DNA of 64,000 nt from the NCBI RefSeq assembly GCF_027484545.1, contig NZ_JAIXST010000053.1:1-64000 (forward strand), given 5' to 3'. Positions 33,150 through 62,538 of the stretch are shown here, piece after piece; the stretch's first letter is position 1; every line of letters begins with the position of its first letter. The translations under genes were made by a program, and so were the position numbers. Source of the DNA: Runella sp. (GTDB taxonomy: Bacteria; Bacteroidota; Bacteroidia; Cytophagales; Spirosomataceae). A model generated the notes under the pieces. That model was given only the letters and a program-made list of their open reading frames with translations, searched no databases and was not told where the DNA came from.

Positions 33150-33173
33150 AAGCGTAGGAAAGATATTGTGAAA

Positions 33174-33204
33174 ACTCCCCGAAAGTTCAGAACTTTCGGG
33201 GAGT
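33174..33204. repeat. Perfect 31-bp palindrome
   Basis: ACTCCCCGAAAGTTC, a central A, then GAACTTTCGGGGAGT: 15-bp arms with a single unpaired base. It lies between the divergent M14 gene and the thioredoxin-like gene. A related arm (CCCGAAA...TTTCGGG) recurs in the hairpin at 38036-38079. Confidence 0.75.
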
Positions 33205-33284
33205 TACGCAAACAAAGTAGGGGGTTTCGTCATTGTTACTACTATTGTTGCTAAACATACGAACGTCAAATTAGCTAACAACCC

Positions 33285-39380: not shown

Positions 39381-41824
39381 TCAACGGCTCAAACTTATGC
39401 CTAACCAATAAGCTTGCGCGTTGTACTGCCAGTCTGACTTAGGCGATGGAAGGTACTGATACGCAACTCCAACCCCCGTACCTATAAAAACGCCCTTGAT
39501 AGGAATTCGAAGCAAATCGCGTATTTCGAGCCCTGCTTCGGCATGAAGCTGATTGGTACGAAACTCCCAACTAAACTGGTGTTTTTCGGATTGACGTAAT
39601 GCTCCCGCCAAAACATTGTTGTATAGCAACAAGCGCGGTTGGGTATATTTGCTCCGAAAACGAAACAGCGTCTGGCTAAAATCGTGGCTAAAGTACAGGG
39701 CGGCGTATCGGTCAGCAATGAAGTCATTGGTAGGTAGTGTACGAAAAGTAGCCAAGGGAAACCCGCTGGAATTCAAACCGGCTACATTTACAAGGCCACT
39801 ACTACCCAGTGAGCCAAACAAATAGGGATAGGGTAAATCGCCGTTGATAAATCCCGACACTACTTTTATATTACTGAAACCCATTCGTTTGGTTCGGATT
39901 TGATAGTATATCTGAACCGCAATACGCCAGTAATCAAACTCACTACCCAAGGTGGGAAGCCCCTTAGATACCTGAACGTTGATAATGGGGAAAAAGCGAT
40001 TGACGATAGACTCCATTCGTCCAGTTCGGTACAGGTTTTCTTTGAATGCAAAACTCCAATCCAGAACCAGTTCAGTGATTTCAAAAGCGTTTCGACCTTC
40101 GTAAGTGTAGGCATAATTGGGCGTTCGCTGTTCTCGGTTGACTGCGATTCTAAACCAACTCCATGCAAAGGGCTTGAAGTGCAGAGAAACGCCGTATTTC
40201 CGAAAATAATCGGCCTGAATCGGCAGGCTGTCTTTGCTGGTAGAAAAAGGTAACGAGGTTTCGGGTTCGATGAGGAAATTAGGGCCTAAAAACTCGGTTG
40301 TTCCGGGTTGGGTAATACTATTTTGAACATAGGCACTCAACTTGTTGAAACGGTCTTTGGTAATATGCCAACTTCCAAGCACTTTGTATTTCCAGCGGGC
40401 ATCTCTTAGCCCATAACCCGCACTGCCATACAGCCTAAATCGTGGTTTAAGACTTTGGTTGTTTTGCAAACCCATTCCTAACCTGGGTCCTTCAATGGAG
40501 TTTCCGTTTAAAAAGTCGCCGGGTTGTAGTTCAATGGGCCCTATTTCAAAAAGATTAGAAAACAAGCTCGCCAAAATATGCCCGTAAGTAGAGTCTAACC
40601 TGCTGATGAGGCTGTTTGGTTTCTTAAAATTAGTGTACATCTTTTGTTCCCAAGCAGCCAGCGTATCGGTTCTGAAACTTTTAAATGTTTCGTTTGTTTG
40701 GCGGATGGCAGCGGGACGCATGGCGCGTTGCACTTCGTCAAATAGCTTATCGTCTAAGTCGGGGTTAATTTCGATGTTGTTCAAATAGGTAGTAAATCGC
40801 ATTTGAAACAGGGCCTAGTACCCCTTGCCCGCGTACCCAGTAAGAGACGCGTAGTAGCTGTCTTGGGAAACCATCGCCCATTTACTTTATGATACTCTTG
40901 CTGAATTCTGAAAGTGAAATTTTGTAGTGTGTCGGTAGGGGCTACACTAATACGCTCAATGGCATATTGGTCGGAGTTGATATATAGAGTGCCTTTTAGG
41001 GCATCAAAATTTGATTTAGGGTAGGGCTTAAAACTAATCACAAAAGTGGTGTCTCGTTCCTGATAGAGAGTATCTTCGATGTTGAAGTCATATTGTGAAA
41101 ACGTTTTTGGATTGATAGGATTCACATAAAACCTTTTCAGAATCGTGAAATTGTAGAGGTCGTCGTAGAAGGATAGTTTGTGTAAATCATGCGGTAAGTA
41201 ATTAGCCATTTGGCTATACACTTGCGCTAAGTTATTGACTGACGCGATGATTGTCTCTTTGTTTTTGTTGGGTTTTTTGTGAATCAACTCACTGAAGTTT
41301 TCTAAGATATAGATGGGGGCCGAAACCTTCGTTGTGCCTATTACTTTTTTGGAGGAGTCTTTCTGTACTTTTCGGAGGCTATCTGCAATCACCAAAATTT
41401 TGGTATAAGCATTGGCTTTGTAGGCATCCAGTTGGTTAGGGTCGTTGATAGGGCGATTTTTTAACACTTTACGAATAATGCCCCAAGCAGGGTTTTCGGA
41501 AGGACGAATGCGTACTTCGGCCAAATCATTGATTTTCTGCGAAAGCTTAAAGGGGCGTTGGTTCGCTTTGTCAGAGAGTACTATTTGCAGCGACTCATAG
41601 CCAATCAAACTCAATACAAGCGTATCAGTGGCAGGATTGACTTGGAGGACAAAACGCCCTTCAATATCGGTTAGTGTTCCTTTGGGTTGGCCTTTGATTC
41701 GTACACTTACAAACGAAAGTGGAGTGTTGTCTTTTGCGTCGGTTACGGTATTTTTTATGGTAACTTTTTGACCAAAAGCGACTTGAGTATATAAAAAAAG
41801 AAGCAGTAAAATGCGTCTCATCAT
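39381..41824 (-). pseudogene. DUF5686 / carboxypeptidase-regulatory-like outer-membrane protein, split by a frameshift
   Basis: Two overlapping frames together make one typical family protein of about 800 residues. The upstream piece (41824 to 40781) has a signal peptide, a carboxypeptidase-regulatory-like beta domain (VTDAKDNTPLSFVSVRIKG) and the start of DUF5686 (NPAWGIIRKVLKNRPIND). It runs out in TRLLLGTRARGTRPCFKC. The second piece (40802 to 39381) resumes with MRFTTYLNNIEINPDL and holds the beta-barrel part to the C-terminus. The shift occurs in the GC-rich stretch 40800-40835, which contains a direct repeat of GGGTAC. One lost base or a short insertion would explain it. Programmed shifting cannot be excluded but nothing supports it. 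Confidence 0.75.
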
Positions 41825-41883
41825 CTTAAATGGCTGTTTACCGATAAAACGTTTTTTTTCTGAATAGATTTTAAAATCTCATC

Positions 41884-41899
41884 TACGAAATATTTCGTA
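41884..41899. promoter_or_regulatory. BlaI-type operator 1
   Basis: TACGAAATATTTCGTA, a perfect 16-bp palindrome just upstream of the -33 element of the blaI promoter and 60 bp before the divergent gene start. Confidence 0.7.
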
Positions 41900-41906
41900 C
41901 AAAAAA

Positions 41907-41938
41907 TTTGGTATTACGAAACTCTTCGTATATGTTTG
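41907..41938 (+). promoter_or_regulatory. Promoter of the blaI-M56 operon
   Basis: TTTG at 41907-41910 and TATGTTTG at 41931-41938 with a 20-bp spacer match the Bacteroidetes promoter consensus. Operator 2 lies exactly in the spacer and operator 3 begins 2 bp after the -7 box, where the start site should be. Repressor binding would block RNA polymerase. Confidence 0.7.
41915..41930. promoter_or_regulatory. BlaI-type operator 2
   Basis: TACGAAACTCTTCGTA, same TACGAA/TTCGTA half-sites at the same spacing as operators 1 and 3, lying in the promoter spacer. Confidence 0.7.
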
Positions 41939-41939
41939 C

Positions 41940-41955
41940 TACGAAATCATTCGTA
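41940..41955. promoter_or_regulatory. BlaI-type operator 3
   Basis: TACGAAATCATTCGTA, flanked by C and G so the dyad extends to 18 bp. It covers the expected transcription start. Confidence 0.7.
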
Positions 41956-41968
41956 GATGATTTGTCGA

Positions 41969-42064
41969 GGATTACAAATCCCCTTTCATTTACCTTTCGG
42001 ATTGTAAATCCGAAAGAGCGGTAGGCTGGAAGCCTGCCAATAGTAAACACGAGGCAGAGCCTCG
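41969..42064. repeat. Cluster of four perfect triloop hairpins in the blaI leader
   Basis: GGATT-ACA-AATCC at 41969-41981. CTTTCGGATT-GTA-AATCCGAAAG at 41994-42016. GGTAGGCT-GGA-AGCCTGCC at 42020-42038 (one T/G pair). CGAGGC-AGA-GCCTCG at 42050-42064, followed by CGC. All lie between the promoter and the blaI start codon, within the transcribed leader. Confidence 0.75.
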
Positions 42065-42114
42065 CGCTATCAAAAATGCACCCACATTCACTAATTCGCA
42101 ATTCACCATTAAAA

Positions 42115-42483
42115 ATGAAACCAACCGATTCTGAACTTGAAATTTTACAGGTGCTTTGGCAGGAAGGCCCCTGTACGGTGCGACAGATAAACGAGCGCCT
42201 CGCCGAAAACAGAGAAGTAGGCTACACCACTACGCTCAAATTGATGCAGATCATGTACGAAAAAGGCCTATTGACTCGATTGGAAGAGGCTCGCTCGCAC
42301 GTATATGAAGCCAATGTCAGCGAGGAAGAAACGCAATCAACGTTGTTAGAGCGTTTTGTGGATACGGCCTTTCGCGGCTCTGCAAGCAAGCTGGTCATGC
42401 ACGCCTTGGGAAATCACAAATCCACTCCTGCCGAATTAGACGAAATTCGTAAACTATTAGACCAAATCGAACAACAGCCATGA
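42115..42483 (+). CDS. blaI: BlaI/MecI/CopY-family transcriptional repressor
   Basis: A 122-residue winged-helix regulator started at ATG 42115; the open frame extends further upstream, but that part lies in the hairpin leader and is not conserved. TDSELEILQVLWQEGPCTVRQINE at residues 3-26 and GYTTTLKLMQIMYEKGLL at 35-52 are the DNA-binding domain. The helical C-terminus mediates dimerisation and carries the cleavage-sensitive region in homologues. It probably represses its own operon by binding the three dyads at 41884-41955. The stop overlaps the start of the M56 gene (ATGA), so the two are translationally coupled. Confidence 0.9.
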   Translation: MKPTDSELEILQVLWQEGPCTVRQINERLAENREVGYTTTLKLMQIMYEKGLLTRLEEARSHVYEANVSEEETQSTLLERFVDTAFRGSASKLVMHALGNHKSTPAELDEIRKLLDQIEQQP

Positions 42484-44669
42484 AACTTTTCTCATTTTCT
42501 ACTGACCCCATTGTCCACGCTTTTGGCTGGATGCTTCTACACGCCGTTTGGCAAGGTTTCGCCATTACTGTCTTAGCGGCCGGTATTTTGTTTTTGCTGC
42601 GTCGCCGAGCCAGCTATGGACGTTATTGGACGGGCATATCGGCTTTATTCCTGCAAATTTTGGTTTCGGCAGGTACATTTGCCTTGTATTATCAGCCTCG
42701 GGCATTACAGGTTGCCATGCCGAAAGTAACCCACTTTGCCCAACCGTTTGTTACAAAAAGTACACAAGTGATGGTTTCAATGCCTTGGTACAATCAAACC
42801 CTTTGGTTTTTACAAAGCAACTTAGACACCATTGTCCTGTTTTGGGTCATTGGGGCTTCGGTGTTGCTGCTTCGTTTGGTAGGAAGCTGGATTTATGTGC
42901 AACAACTGAAAGCCGAAGGAATTCGATTGACCGAATCGCGCATTCAGGAGATGTTTCGTCGAATCGCTGCTAAACTCAACATCCGTTCTACGGTGCATTT
43001 GTTTGAGTCGGTTCGAGTGAGTACACCCGTGGTGATTGGTTTTATTAAACCCGTTGTGTTGCTTCCCGTTGGCTTGGCTACGGGCTTGACTACAAAGCAA
43101 ATAGAGGCGATTTTGGCGCATGAATTGGCGCACGTAAAACGTTTTGATTATTTGGTAAATCTCATTCAATCCTTAGTCGAAGTGGTCTATTTCTTTCATC
43201 CTGCCTTGTGGTGGTTGTCGTCAAGAGTGCGTGCTGAGCGCGAACATTGCTGCGACGATGTGGCGGTTCAAGTGTGTGGCGATAAACTTGCTTTTGCGCG
43301 GGCCTTGGCAGAGGTAGAGGCATTTCGTCAGTCGCCGGCATTGGCCATGGCCTTTGCTTCCAAAAAAGGAATGATGTTGCAGCGGGTAAAACGTGTGTTG
43401 GGAGTTACAGAAAAACCACAGCACCGAATGAGTCCCAATGTGTTGGTTCTATTTGTGTTGTTAGTATTTGGGGTATCTGTTTACGCCTTTCAGCAGGATG
43501 GAAAACCAAAACAGGCGAAAGCGAAAATTTCCAAAATGAAACATAACAGTATTTTTAATATAACAGAAAAGGAAGGCGGCACACGAATAGAAATGAATCA
43601 AGAAAATAGTAAATTAGTGTTAATTAAAGTCCTTTGGGAGCATCGACAACTTTCTAACGATGAAGTATCCCGATTGCAAAAATTGAGAGATAAAATAGAG
43701 TTGGGTGAATTAAGTATAAATGATATCCAAAACAAACAGCAAAAGGACATTTTAGAATATCTTCATAAGTGGGAGTCATCTTTTGATGAAGGTTTTAAAG
43801 GGCTGGGAAAAGGTTTGAAGCAACTGTCGGAGTTTTATGTAAAATTAGACTCGCTTGATTTAGGCGAGAATAATGTGATTAAGGAATTAGAAGTTTGGTC
43901 ATCGGATGAGAATTTATTGACTAAAATTGTAGATTCTGTACTTGTTAATGGAAAATGGGTCGCTGCTAATGAATATGAGGCCAAATGGAACCAAGTAGAC
44001 AATGCTAAAATGGCTTTCCACCAACGTAAAATGGACAGCCTGAGCCGAATGATGGAGCCCCAACACCAAAAAATGGAAGCCCTGCGGCTCGAAATGGAGC
44101 AATACGAATTTAAAACCAGTGAGCTGGAGCGTAAAATGGAAGTGCTGGAGTGGAAAAGAAGCAAGTTTTACGACGAACGCAGCCAATTGCTCGAAAAGCG
44201 TAACCGAACGATGTACCATGAAGGCCAAAAAGTAAAAAAATCGGAAACTGAGGTAGAAAAAGAATTGGCGCAGTTTGAAGAGCAAATTAAACAGCAAGAA
44301 ACGCAGATTCAACAGTTGAACCAACAAACGGCCGAGTTGAGACAGCAAATCAAAACCGCTCGCCAACCCGTAGAGGATTTAGAAAAACAAGTGCATAAGT
44401 TGGAGGAAATGAATGAAAAATATGCACGTGAAATGGAGCGTTATTCTTCTGAAATGGCGCACATGTTGCCACCTCCGCCACCTCCTGTTGAAAGGGCCAG
44501 AGTAAAAACACCGCGGCCGGTTATGTCTGCATCGCCATTCATTGATGCAGTACCTGCAAAGTCTTCAAGAGTCAATGTAAGAGCACCTCGGGCAGTGGTG
44601 TTACCACGTACTCCCCGGGCCGCCACGGCACCTACTCCGGCGGCGCCCGCAGCGCCAAAGAAGAAATAA
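42480..44669 (+). CDS. M56-family membrane metallopeptidase (BlaR1/MecR1-like sensor) with coiled-coil, proline-rich tail
   Basis: A 729-residue protein. Membrane spans lie near residues 12-40, 50-72, 110-131 and 318-335. The zinc site HELAH is at 214-218, with the third ligand in AEREHCCDD near 255. In BlaR1-type systems this protease cleaves the partner repressor after a signal. Here the periplasmic penicillin-binding domain is missing. After residue 345 the sequence is not familiar to about 500, then a Gln/Glu-rich coiled coil runs to about 660, followed by a proline-rich and basic tail (MLPPPPPPVERARV). The signal sensed is therefore probably not a beta-lactam. A clear terminator follows. 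Confidence 0.85.
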   Translation: MKLFSFSTDPIVHAFGWMLLHAVWQGFAITVLAAGILFLLRRRASYGRYWTGISALFLQILVSAGTFALYYQPRALQVAMPKVTHFAQPFVTKSTQVMVSMPWYNQTLWFLQSNLDTIVLFWVIGASVLLLRLVGSWIYVQQLKAEGIRLTESRIQEMFRRIAAKLNIRSTVHLFESVRVSTPVVIGFIKPVVLLPVGLATGLTTKQIEAILAHELAHVKRFDYLVNLIQSLVEVVYFFHPALWWLSSRVRAEREHCCDDVAVQVCGDKLAFARALAEVEAFRQSPALAMAFASKKGMMLQRVKRVLGVTEKPQHRMSPNVLVLFVLLVFGVSVYAFQQDGKPKQAKAKISKMKHNSIFNITEKEGGTRIEMNQENSKLVLIKVLWEHRQLSNDEVSRLQKLRDKIELGELSINDIQNKQQKDILEYLHKWESSFDEGFKGLGKGLKQLSEFYVKLDSLDLGENNVIKELEVWSSDENLLTKIVDSVLVNGKWVAANEYEAKWNQVDNAKMAFHQRKMDSLSRMMEPQHQKMEALRLEMEQYEFKTSELERKMEVLEWKRSKFYDERSQLLEKRNRTMYHEGQKVKKSETEVEKELAQFEEQIKQQETQIQQLNQQTAELRQQIKTARQPVEDLEKQVHKLEEMNEKYAREMERYSSEMAHMLPPPPPPVERARVKTPRPVMSASPFIDAVPAKSSRVNVRAPRAVVLPRTPRAATAPTPAAPAAPKKK

Positions 44670-52376: not shown

Positions 52377-52407
52377 CATAATGAATCACAGACCTCTTAT
52401 CTTATTG

Positions 52408-52456
52408 AAGTATGACTTAGGAAATAAGAAGTAATCTTACTTCCTAAGTCATACTT
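52408..52456. repeat. 21-bp inverted repeat (hairpin) before the ABC ATPase gene
   Basis: AAGTATGACTTAGGAAATAAG pairs with CTTACTTCCTAAGTCATACTT with a single mismatch and a 7-nt loop. It sits 32 bp after the 387-residue gene and 17 bp before the next start, so it could end the first transcript. Confidence 0.65.
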
Positions 52457-52472
52457 CCTAATTCCATTATCT

Positions 52473-62386: not shown

Positions 62387-62538
62387 AGTGATTCTGATTT
62401 TAGGTGAATTCAATAACGAACTGGCTAAAAAAGCCATTCCGGTTGTACTGGGGAAAGTATGCCTCATGAATAGACTGGATTTTATTGGAACGGGATTTTA
62501 AATCTTTGTCTCAACAATTAAAAAGAAAACAGACAGTC

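Follow-up and report, generated by a model that had tools for sequence, protein, structure and literature searches.

Two abutting dispersed repeats in a Runella blaI leader as probable REP-type elements of separate RAYT branches

Four hairpins ahead of blaI

Just upstream of a blaI gene, the window (the whole 64,000-nt stretch of DNA that was analysed) carries four short hairpins, all with 3-nt loops, between 41969 and 42064. Are they a structured leader belonging to the gene, or small repeats that came to rest in front of it? The hairpins were confirmed by reading the sequence and by recomputation. All are given on the forward strand. Hairpin A (41969–41981, GGATT-ACA-AATCC) has an arm of 5 bp, hairpin B (41994–42016, CTTTCGGATT-GTA-AATCCGAAAG) one of 10 bp, hairpin C (42023–42035, AGGCT-GGA-AGCCT) one of five Watson-Crick pairs, and hairpin D (42050–42064, CGAGGC-AGA-GCCTCG) one of 6 bp with an A·C mismatch at its foot (42049 and 42065). 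The original prediction of four perfect triloop hairpins was correct in number, place and loop length, but the 8-bp arm given for hairpin C (GGTAGGCT/AGCCTGCC, with the extension GGT/GCC) forms only with one T·G pair.

Four triloop hairpins in a row are beyond chance. As run statistic we took the longest series of non-overlapping triloop hairpins, with arms of at least 5 bp, within 100 bp. It is 4 in the window, and 2 (81 times) or 3 (19 times) in 100 dinucleotide shuffles of the window. Among 20,000 shuffles of 41966–42072 (107 bases), a run of 3 appeared once and a run of 4 never. The single-strand DNA fold has a z-score of −5.45, and none of 200 shuffles was as stable. Elsewhere in the window, a 15-bp perfect hairpin with a 3-nt loop at 33173–33205 has the longest arm of the 25 listed and may be a terminator or another repeat. 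At 52407–52457 there is a 23-nt inverted repeat, 96% complementary, with a 5-nt loop.

The hairpins had been placed in the leader of blaI, and this placement holds. They are followed by a blaI/mecI-type repressor gene (42115–42483, forward strand; Penicillinase_R, PF03965, 3.1e-27 with the query taken from codon 2) and a BlaR1-type M56 peptidase gene (42480–44669, forward strand; PF05569, 1.7e-29), so that 42115–44669 is a blaI-blaR1 pair. The orthologue of blaI is present in 13/13 genus members, all of which have an ATG at the place of its conserved start, MKPTD. The blaI frame is also open from an ATG at 42076, 13 codons upstream and just after the last hairpin element, and an annotation may pick this longer form. 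Ahead of the hairpins lie three operator-like palindromes at 41884–41899 (TACGAA-N4-TTCGTA), 41915–41930 and 41940–41955, found in the blaI leader of every genus member (13/13). By their place and conservation they look like operators. A promoter-like sequence, TTTG-N20-TATGTTTG (41907–41938, forward strand), overlaps the palindromes and fits the Bacteroidetes −33/−7 promoter motif; TAnnTTTG stands between the first and the last palindrome in all 13 members. Because this promoter-like sequence lies upstream, the hairpins are probably transcribed. On the other side of the locus, a CarbopepD_reg/DUF5686 gene (39384–41824, reverse strand) is broken into two ORFs that overlap and lie in different frames; they match DUF5686 at positions 1–212 and 479–635 of 669, which indicates a pseudogene or an assembly error.

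Two dispersed repeat families

The four hairpins are two adjoining, unrelated dispersed repeats of about 50 bp and not one unit. The first, M1 (41969–42019, forward strand), consists of hairpin A, a 12-nt spacer, hairpin B and the tail AGC. The second, M2 (42020–42071, forward strand; model match 42024–42070), consists of hairpin C, a spacer, hairpin D and the tail CGCTAT; its spacer measures 14 nt between the hairpin cores and 11 columns between the modelled stems. The 108-bp hairpin stretch was used as a query against 59 genomes, among them the window's own (G000). Its listed matches in other genomes with E < 1e-3 cover either 1–57 (M1) or 57–108 (M2), and a few weaker ones cross the border (for example in G031, E 0.009). 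The matches often stand in arrays with alternating orientation. Hairpins unique to this site and conserved as a unit had been named beforehand as the result that would speak against small palindromic elements; the opposite was found, as the hairpins are dispersed and split.

In the own genome, a plain DNA search yields weak partial matches and covariance models find many more. The models were built from aligned copies (R2 for M1, R1 for M2), and 150 candidates were scored per genome. Copies entered the alignments only with a match of at least 40 columns, which gave 10 of 10 M1 copies and, after trimming and removal of near-duplicates, 31 of 42 M2 copies. In the window, the self-repeat and model searches returned no further full copy of M1 or M2. 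Other R2 matches in the window were rejected, namely hairpin B on the opposite strand and 62474–62505 (E 0.14, taken as chance). A scan of the genome contigs with 17 bases of hairpin C gave 35 stretches in scattered phyla, which were likewise taken as chance (L052–L086, kept out of the set of copies).

The window's M1 scores 73.7 bits across all 51 positions of R2. Including this copy, M1 has 16 matches in G000, 50 at 42 places in G003, 9 in G005 and 3 at 2 places in G011; at 150 candidates per genome, there were 0 in the 9 other genus members. A larger set of 76 matches from 44 chosen sources, in which both-strand places and arrayed copies are included, has 3-nt loops in 74 rows for each hairpin, a spacer of 11–12 nt in 68 and the tail AGC in 65. 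Fitted to the model, the 71 distinct rows of this set, which are not independent, show changes on both sides in 12 of 15 pairs (3/5 in hairpin A, 9/10 in hairpin B) and in 155 cells, against 0 of 500 shuffles. In the 10-row alignment the figures are 3 of 15 pairs and 5 cells, equalled by 12/500 shuffles for pairs and 0/500 for cells. Among 52 other copies compared, the closest to the window's M1 are the two in the blaI leader of G003 (88 and 86.5%), with the rest at 84.6% or less.

The window's M2 scores 69.0 bits over the full length of R1, which has no other match in the window at E values up to 1. At least 20 matches, the window's included, were found in G000, and among the matches listed M2 occurs in at least 12 of 13 genus members. 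The second loop has 3 nt in 25 of 31 aligned rows and 4 nt in 6, the A·C mismatch at the foot of the second hairpin is kept in 31/31, and the stem of hairpin C is nearly invariant. Changes on both sides affect 8 of 13 pairs, all in hairpin 2 (8 of the 9 pairs of this helix), and amount to 33 cells, where shuffles average 8.4. None of 500 shuffles reached 33, and slid partners gave 6 cells at most. The covariation of the hairpin pairs points to selection on the fold, as would be expected for DNA that is read folded by an enzyme. The window's M2 is 58–69% similar to the eight own-genome copies shown (C145 reaches 77% in local alignment) and 77–81% similar to copies adjoining RAYT genes of G001, G004 and G018; its best local matches, among those listed, are at 86–88%. 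This subtype is thus nearer to copies in G018, G010, G004 and G001 than to most own-genome copies shown, which suggests that M2 is old or came from elsewhere. A common origin of hairpin D with GC-rich repeats of the window, hinted at earlier from its tail, was not borne out: its relatives are M2 copies elsewhere, such GC-rich repeats were not identified in the window, and the three other short window hairpins with a CG-YGC-like tail are weak and unrelated to M2.

M1 also lies inside genes. Of its 15 matches in G000 outside the window, 8 overlap an ORF of at least 100 codons, one of them in a likely spurious frame, and 7 are in frame within long ORFs. Six of these ORFs have Pfam domains, namely double ABC ATPase, PHP, FAD oxidase, penicillin-binding transpeptidase with transglycosylase, PMT_2 and ABC transporter. 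Two of the genes were compared with their orthologues. In the PHP protein (12 rows), an 18-residue M1 insert stands at the same site in G000 and G003 and is missing from G012, G009, G011, G004, G007 and G005; G006 and G008 have about 5 residues there, and an insert unrelated to M1 takes the site in G001 and G010. For the penicillin-binding protein, only G000 has the M1 insert. The 12 other rows have a few residues at the site, or unrelated inserts that are longer in G010, G001 and G007 and shorter in G005. According to this comparison, M1 turns up in many different sorts of tolerant site. The M1 sites also accept unrelated inserts (L247 and L248 for the PHP protein; L255, L260 and L263 for the penicillin-binding protein).

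RAYT genes beside the repeats

REP-associated tyrosine transposases (RAYTs) are HuH/Y1 transposase-like proteins. The genomes contain Y1_Tnp-type genes of 174–184 aa, distinct from the IS200 type of about 150 aa, and both types are present. All five RAYTs tested exceeded the cut-offs of NCBIfam NF047646 and PF01797, and none of the five passed that of transpos_IS200. The nearest solved sequence is TnpArep 4er8 (E 5.3e-7). In a nine-row alignment (A1), the second His and the Tyr are 82 residues apart and the C-terminal SS is invariant; strict matches were counted for NHxH in 5 rows, WQ in 7 and YIH[QN]NP in 3, and the first HuH residue is S in 4.

There were 35 RAYT matches, 30 with a locus that was examined and 5 without. 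M1 adjoins the RAYT at 3 of the 30 loci (G000:C4, G003:C4 and G005:C503), where copies stand in inverted orientation to either side of the gene. M2 does so at 5: it flanks the gene on both sides in G001 and in G004, is confined to one side at G000:C9, and lies at two truncated genes of G018; one further locus (L161) has a weak M2 match. No locus of the 30 has both repeats. As a control, nine loci of IS200-type TnpA gave no M1 match and two short weak M2 matches (18.7 and 14.9 bits, both at L096). The genus members with at least 9 M1 matches (G000, G003 and G005) are the same 3 of 13 that have an M1-flanked RAYT. Within the genus, M2-flanked RAYTs were found only in G000, G001 and G004, and G010 has at least 54 M2 matches with no M2-flanked RAYT found. 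M1-like matches occur in G032 and G022, yet neither has a RAYT match at 1e-15, and G032 is also without a PF01797 match. Repeats with no RAYT found could be explained by lost or unassembled genes, by old copies or by another enzyme.

The RAYT tree covered 19 of the 30 loci. M2-flanked RAYTs are one branch (96/93). M1-flanked RAYTs do not group as a single clade in the full tree, where a gene of G006 pairs with that of G003 (89/91), and they form a branch only when the unlabelled rows are ignored. From the tree and the flanks, the M1 and M2 families each look tied to a RAYT branch of their own.

Loop length follows the RAYT clade as well, in a division of 14 nearer and 9 distant loci of the 30 that was made after the tree had been seen, and with arrayed hairpins that are not independent. 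Within 300 nt of the 14 nearer-clade RAYTs, 47 of 69 perfect hairpins with arms of at least 6 bp have a 3-nt loop, against 6 of 37 farther away at the same loci. In contrast, 34 of 41 hairpins within 300 nt of the 9 distant-clade RAYTs have a 4-nt loop and 3 a 3-nt loop; farther out at these loci, where the arrays continue, 4-nt loops make up 17 of 41. The 3-nt loop is therefore usual beside the nearer clade, and this accounts for the loop length that the window's hairpins share. A more distant RAYT type stands at L141, L144 and L146 (G004, G001 and G010), flanked by long arrays of 4-nt-loop hairpins.

Probable insertion into the leader and relation to known repeats

Leader length was compared among relatives. 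Counted from where the last palindrome starts, the distance to the ATG of blaI is 21–86 nt in 11 of 13 genus members, 175 in G000 and 269 in G003. According to the models, the G000 leader holds one M1 and M2, that of G003 holds two M1, and M2 is in G000 alone; by models and leader comparison, the 11 shorter leaders have neither. G000 and G003 pair weakly in the blaI-blaR1 tree (71/53), and the M1 copy of the PHP-domain gene is common to the two at one site. One ancestral M1 insertion in the leader with later changes is the simplest reading. A small hairpin, ATGCY-N-RGCATGAC, was noticed by eye just before blaI at L108–L112 and L114 (G002, G011, G009, G003, G012 and G004), and is possibly another dispersed repeat.

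With high confidence we consider that the blaI leader contains two REP-type mobile miniature elements placed end to end, each with its own RAYT branch. M1 and M2 look like inserted passengers rather than a conserved blaI switch. The reading is built on the observed family structure, the association with RAYT genes, and the presence or absence of elements at orthologous sites; mobility is read from sequence comparison, and no target duplication is defined for M1 or M2. A RAYT would recognise the folded single strand, with two hairpins, mostly 3-nt loops and some 11–14 nt between them. In the case of M2, the fixed A·C mismatch at the stem foot may also be recognised. The enzyme would then carry copies to new sites. 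M1 would have entered the ancestor of G000 and G003, and M2 would have followed later, beside M1, in the G000 line. The leader appears tolerant because the palindromes and the promoter-like sequence lie upstream of the inserts, and 43 nt are left between M2 and the ATG. The original suggestion of a hotspot for small palindromic elements gains from this, as two families abut here and the G003 leader has taken up M1 twice. Any effect of the insert on blaI expression is putative and would be secondary.

It is doubtful, though the best of the alternatives, that the inserted elements now tune blaI in the G000/G003 line through mRNA stability or start-codon pairing. The inserts have been kept in both genomes, which pair in the blaI-blaR1 tree, and REPs are described in the consulted part of PMC6006769 as affecting mRNA stability, termination and translation. 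However, the support for that pairing is weak, and the content differs, being M1 and M2 in one leader and two M1 in the other. In the fold predicted for G003 the start codon shows no particular closure (P(unpaired) 0.44), and across the 13 members the mean predicted openness over positions −15 to +12 is similar (0.58–0.77). We give very little credence to an RNA leader that evolved for blaI as an attenuator or translation switch. The leader RNA does fold better than its shuffles (z = −4.36; 0 of 200 as stable), and in the predicted fold the start codon pairs with the spacer of M1 (42113–42119 with 41985–41991), leaving the ATG with a P(unpaired) of 0.08. Yet the start codons of G005 and G007, whose leaders are free of inserts, are predicted to be equally closed (0.03 and 0.08). 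The structure is missing in 11 of 13 genus members, so that the proposed control of blaI translation is not supported as a conserved device, and copies of these elements also lie at numerous unrelated places and within genes. An Rfam scan of 41000–43000 gave no match up to E 1, and a terminator reading was rejected, as none of the four hairpins is followed by a run of T. An origin as MITEs of a DDE transposon of the classical kind, or as IS200/IS605 remnants, is equally improbable: M1 and M2 are small, non-coding and dispersed, and IS200-type genes are present, but each repeat consists of two successive hairpins instead of carrying inverted repeats at its ends, the nine IS200-type loci gave no M1 and two weak M2 matches, and the five RAYTs tested pass the cut-off of NF047646 and not that of transpos_IS200.

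The REP-type elements that we favour are of an already known kind, namely REP-like repeats that go with RAYTs of the group-5 type. Quentin et al. 2018 (PMC6006769), in the part available to us, equate TnpAY1 subclass 2.6 with RAYT group 5, mostly from Bacteroidetes. Its members have about 179 aa, a HuH-to-Y distance of about 82 aa and a C-terminal SS, and their flanks carry 'atypical secondary structures' without GT[AG]G; the repeats are described there as weaker folds with copies elsewhere in the genome, and that part gives no further anatomy. The RAYTs studied here likely belong to this class by their length, the 82-residue spacing and the C-terminal SS, and the short motifs fit in part. M1 and M2, too, adjoin RAYTs, are without GT[AG]G and have copies elsewhere in the host genome. 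Beyond that partial description, they consist of two hairpins in line, with an AGC tail in M1 and a fixed A·C mismatch in M2. The literature searched yielded no account of the paired-hairpin anatomy, of a rule for loop length, of the fixed mismatch or of M1 copies in frame within genes, and Table S1 of PMC6006769 may list some of the sequences.

Like canonical REPs, REPINs and BIMEs of RAYT groups 2 or 3, M1 and M2 are small palindromes beside a RAYT, in alternating clusters and in RAYT-specific families. Unlike the canonical REP, they have no GT[AG]G foot 0–2 nt 5' of the hairpin. Inspection by eye showed GT[AG]G in a single M2 copy among 42, at hairpin 1 (GGTAGG, in the window's copy), in a single M1 copy among 53 (L202), and at M2 hairpin 2 in none of 31 rows, as far as the aligned columns reach. 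A stem mismatch is needed in the E. coli REP, according to the part of PMC8266576 consulted. A REPIN is made of two inverted copies of one REP, whereas the M1 or M2 unit has two different hairpins in line; inverted neighbouring units do occur in arrays. A bipartite REP, in which two different hairpins some 11–14 nt apart are read as one unit, is about an even bet. Its loop length would be set by the RAYT clade (3 versus 4 nt), a fixed mismatch or AGC tail would replace the GTAG guide, and M1 would spread into leaders and, in frame, into genes, adding about 17–19 residues.

M1 and M2 give a concrete candidate substrate to a group of RAYTs for which the part of the literature seen calls the repeats atypical and says no more. 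The genus has two RAYT branches whose repeats differ sharply, and close relatives have empty sites; the recognition rules can thereby be tested in vitro (loop length, spacing, mismatch and tail). With the intragenic M1 copies, in-frame insertion can be connected with a candidate enzyme. For Rickettsia palindromic elements and some REPs, the consulted parts of PMC10969869 and PMC3733652 describe copies that lie in frame within functionally unrelated genes, and M1 resembles those elements and the intragenic GTAG/CGTC REPs in this respect. The CGTC repeats, including Rickettsia RPE-4 and RPE-6, have no dedicated transposase according to the portion of PMC3733652 at hand. In contrast, M1 flanks a RAYT. 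If the bipartite-REP reading is true, M1 would represent a process like that of those Rickettsia elements, with the difference that a candidate transposase has been identified for it.
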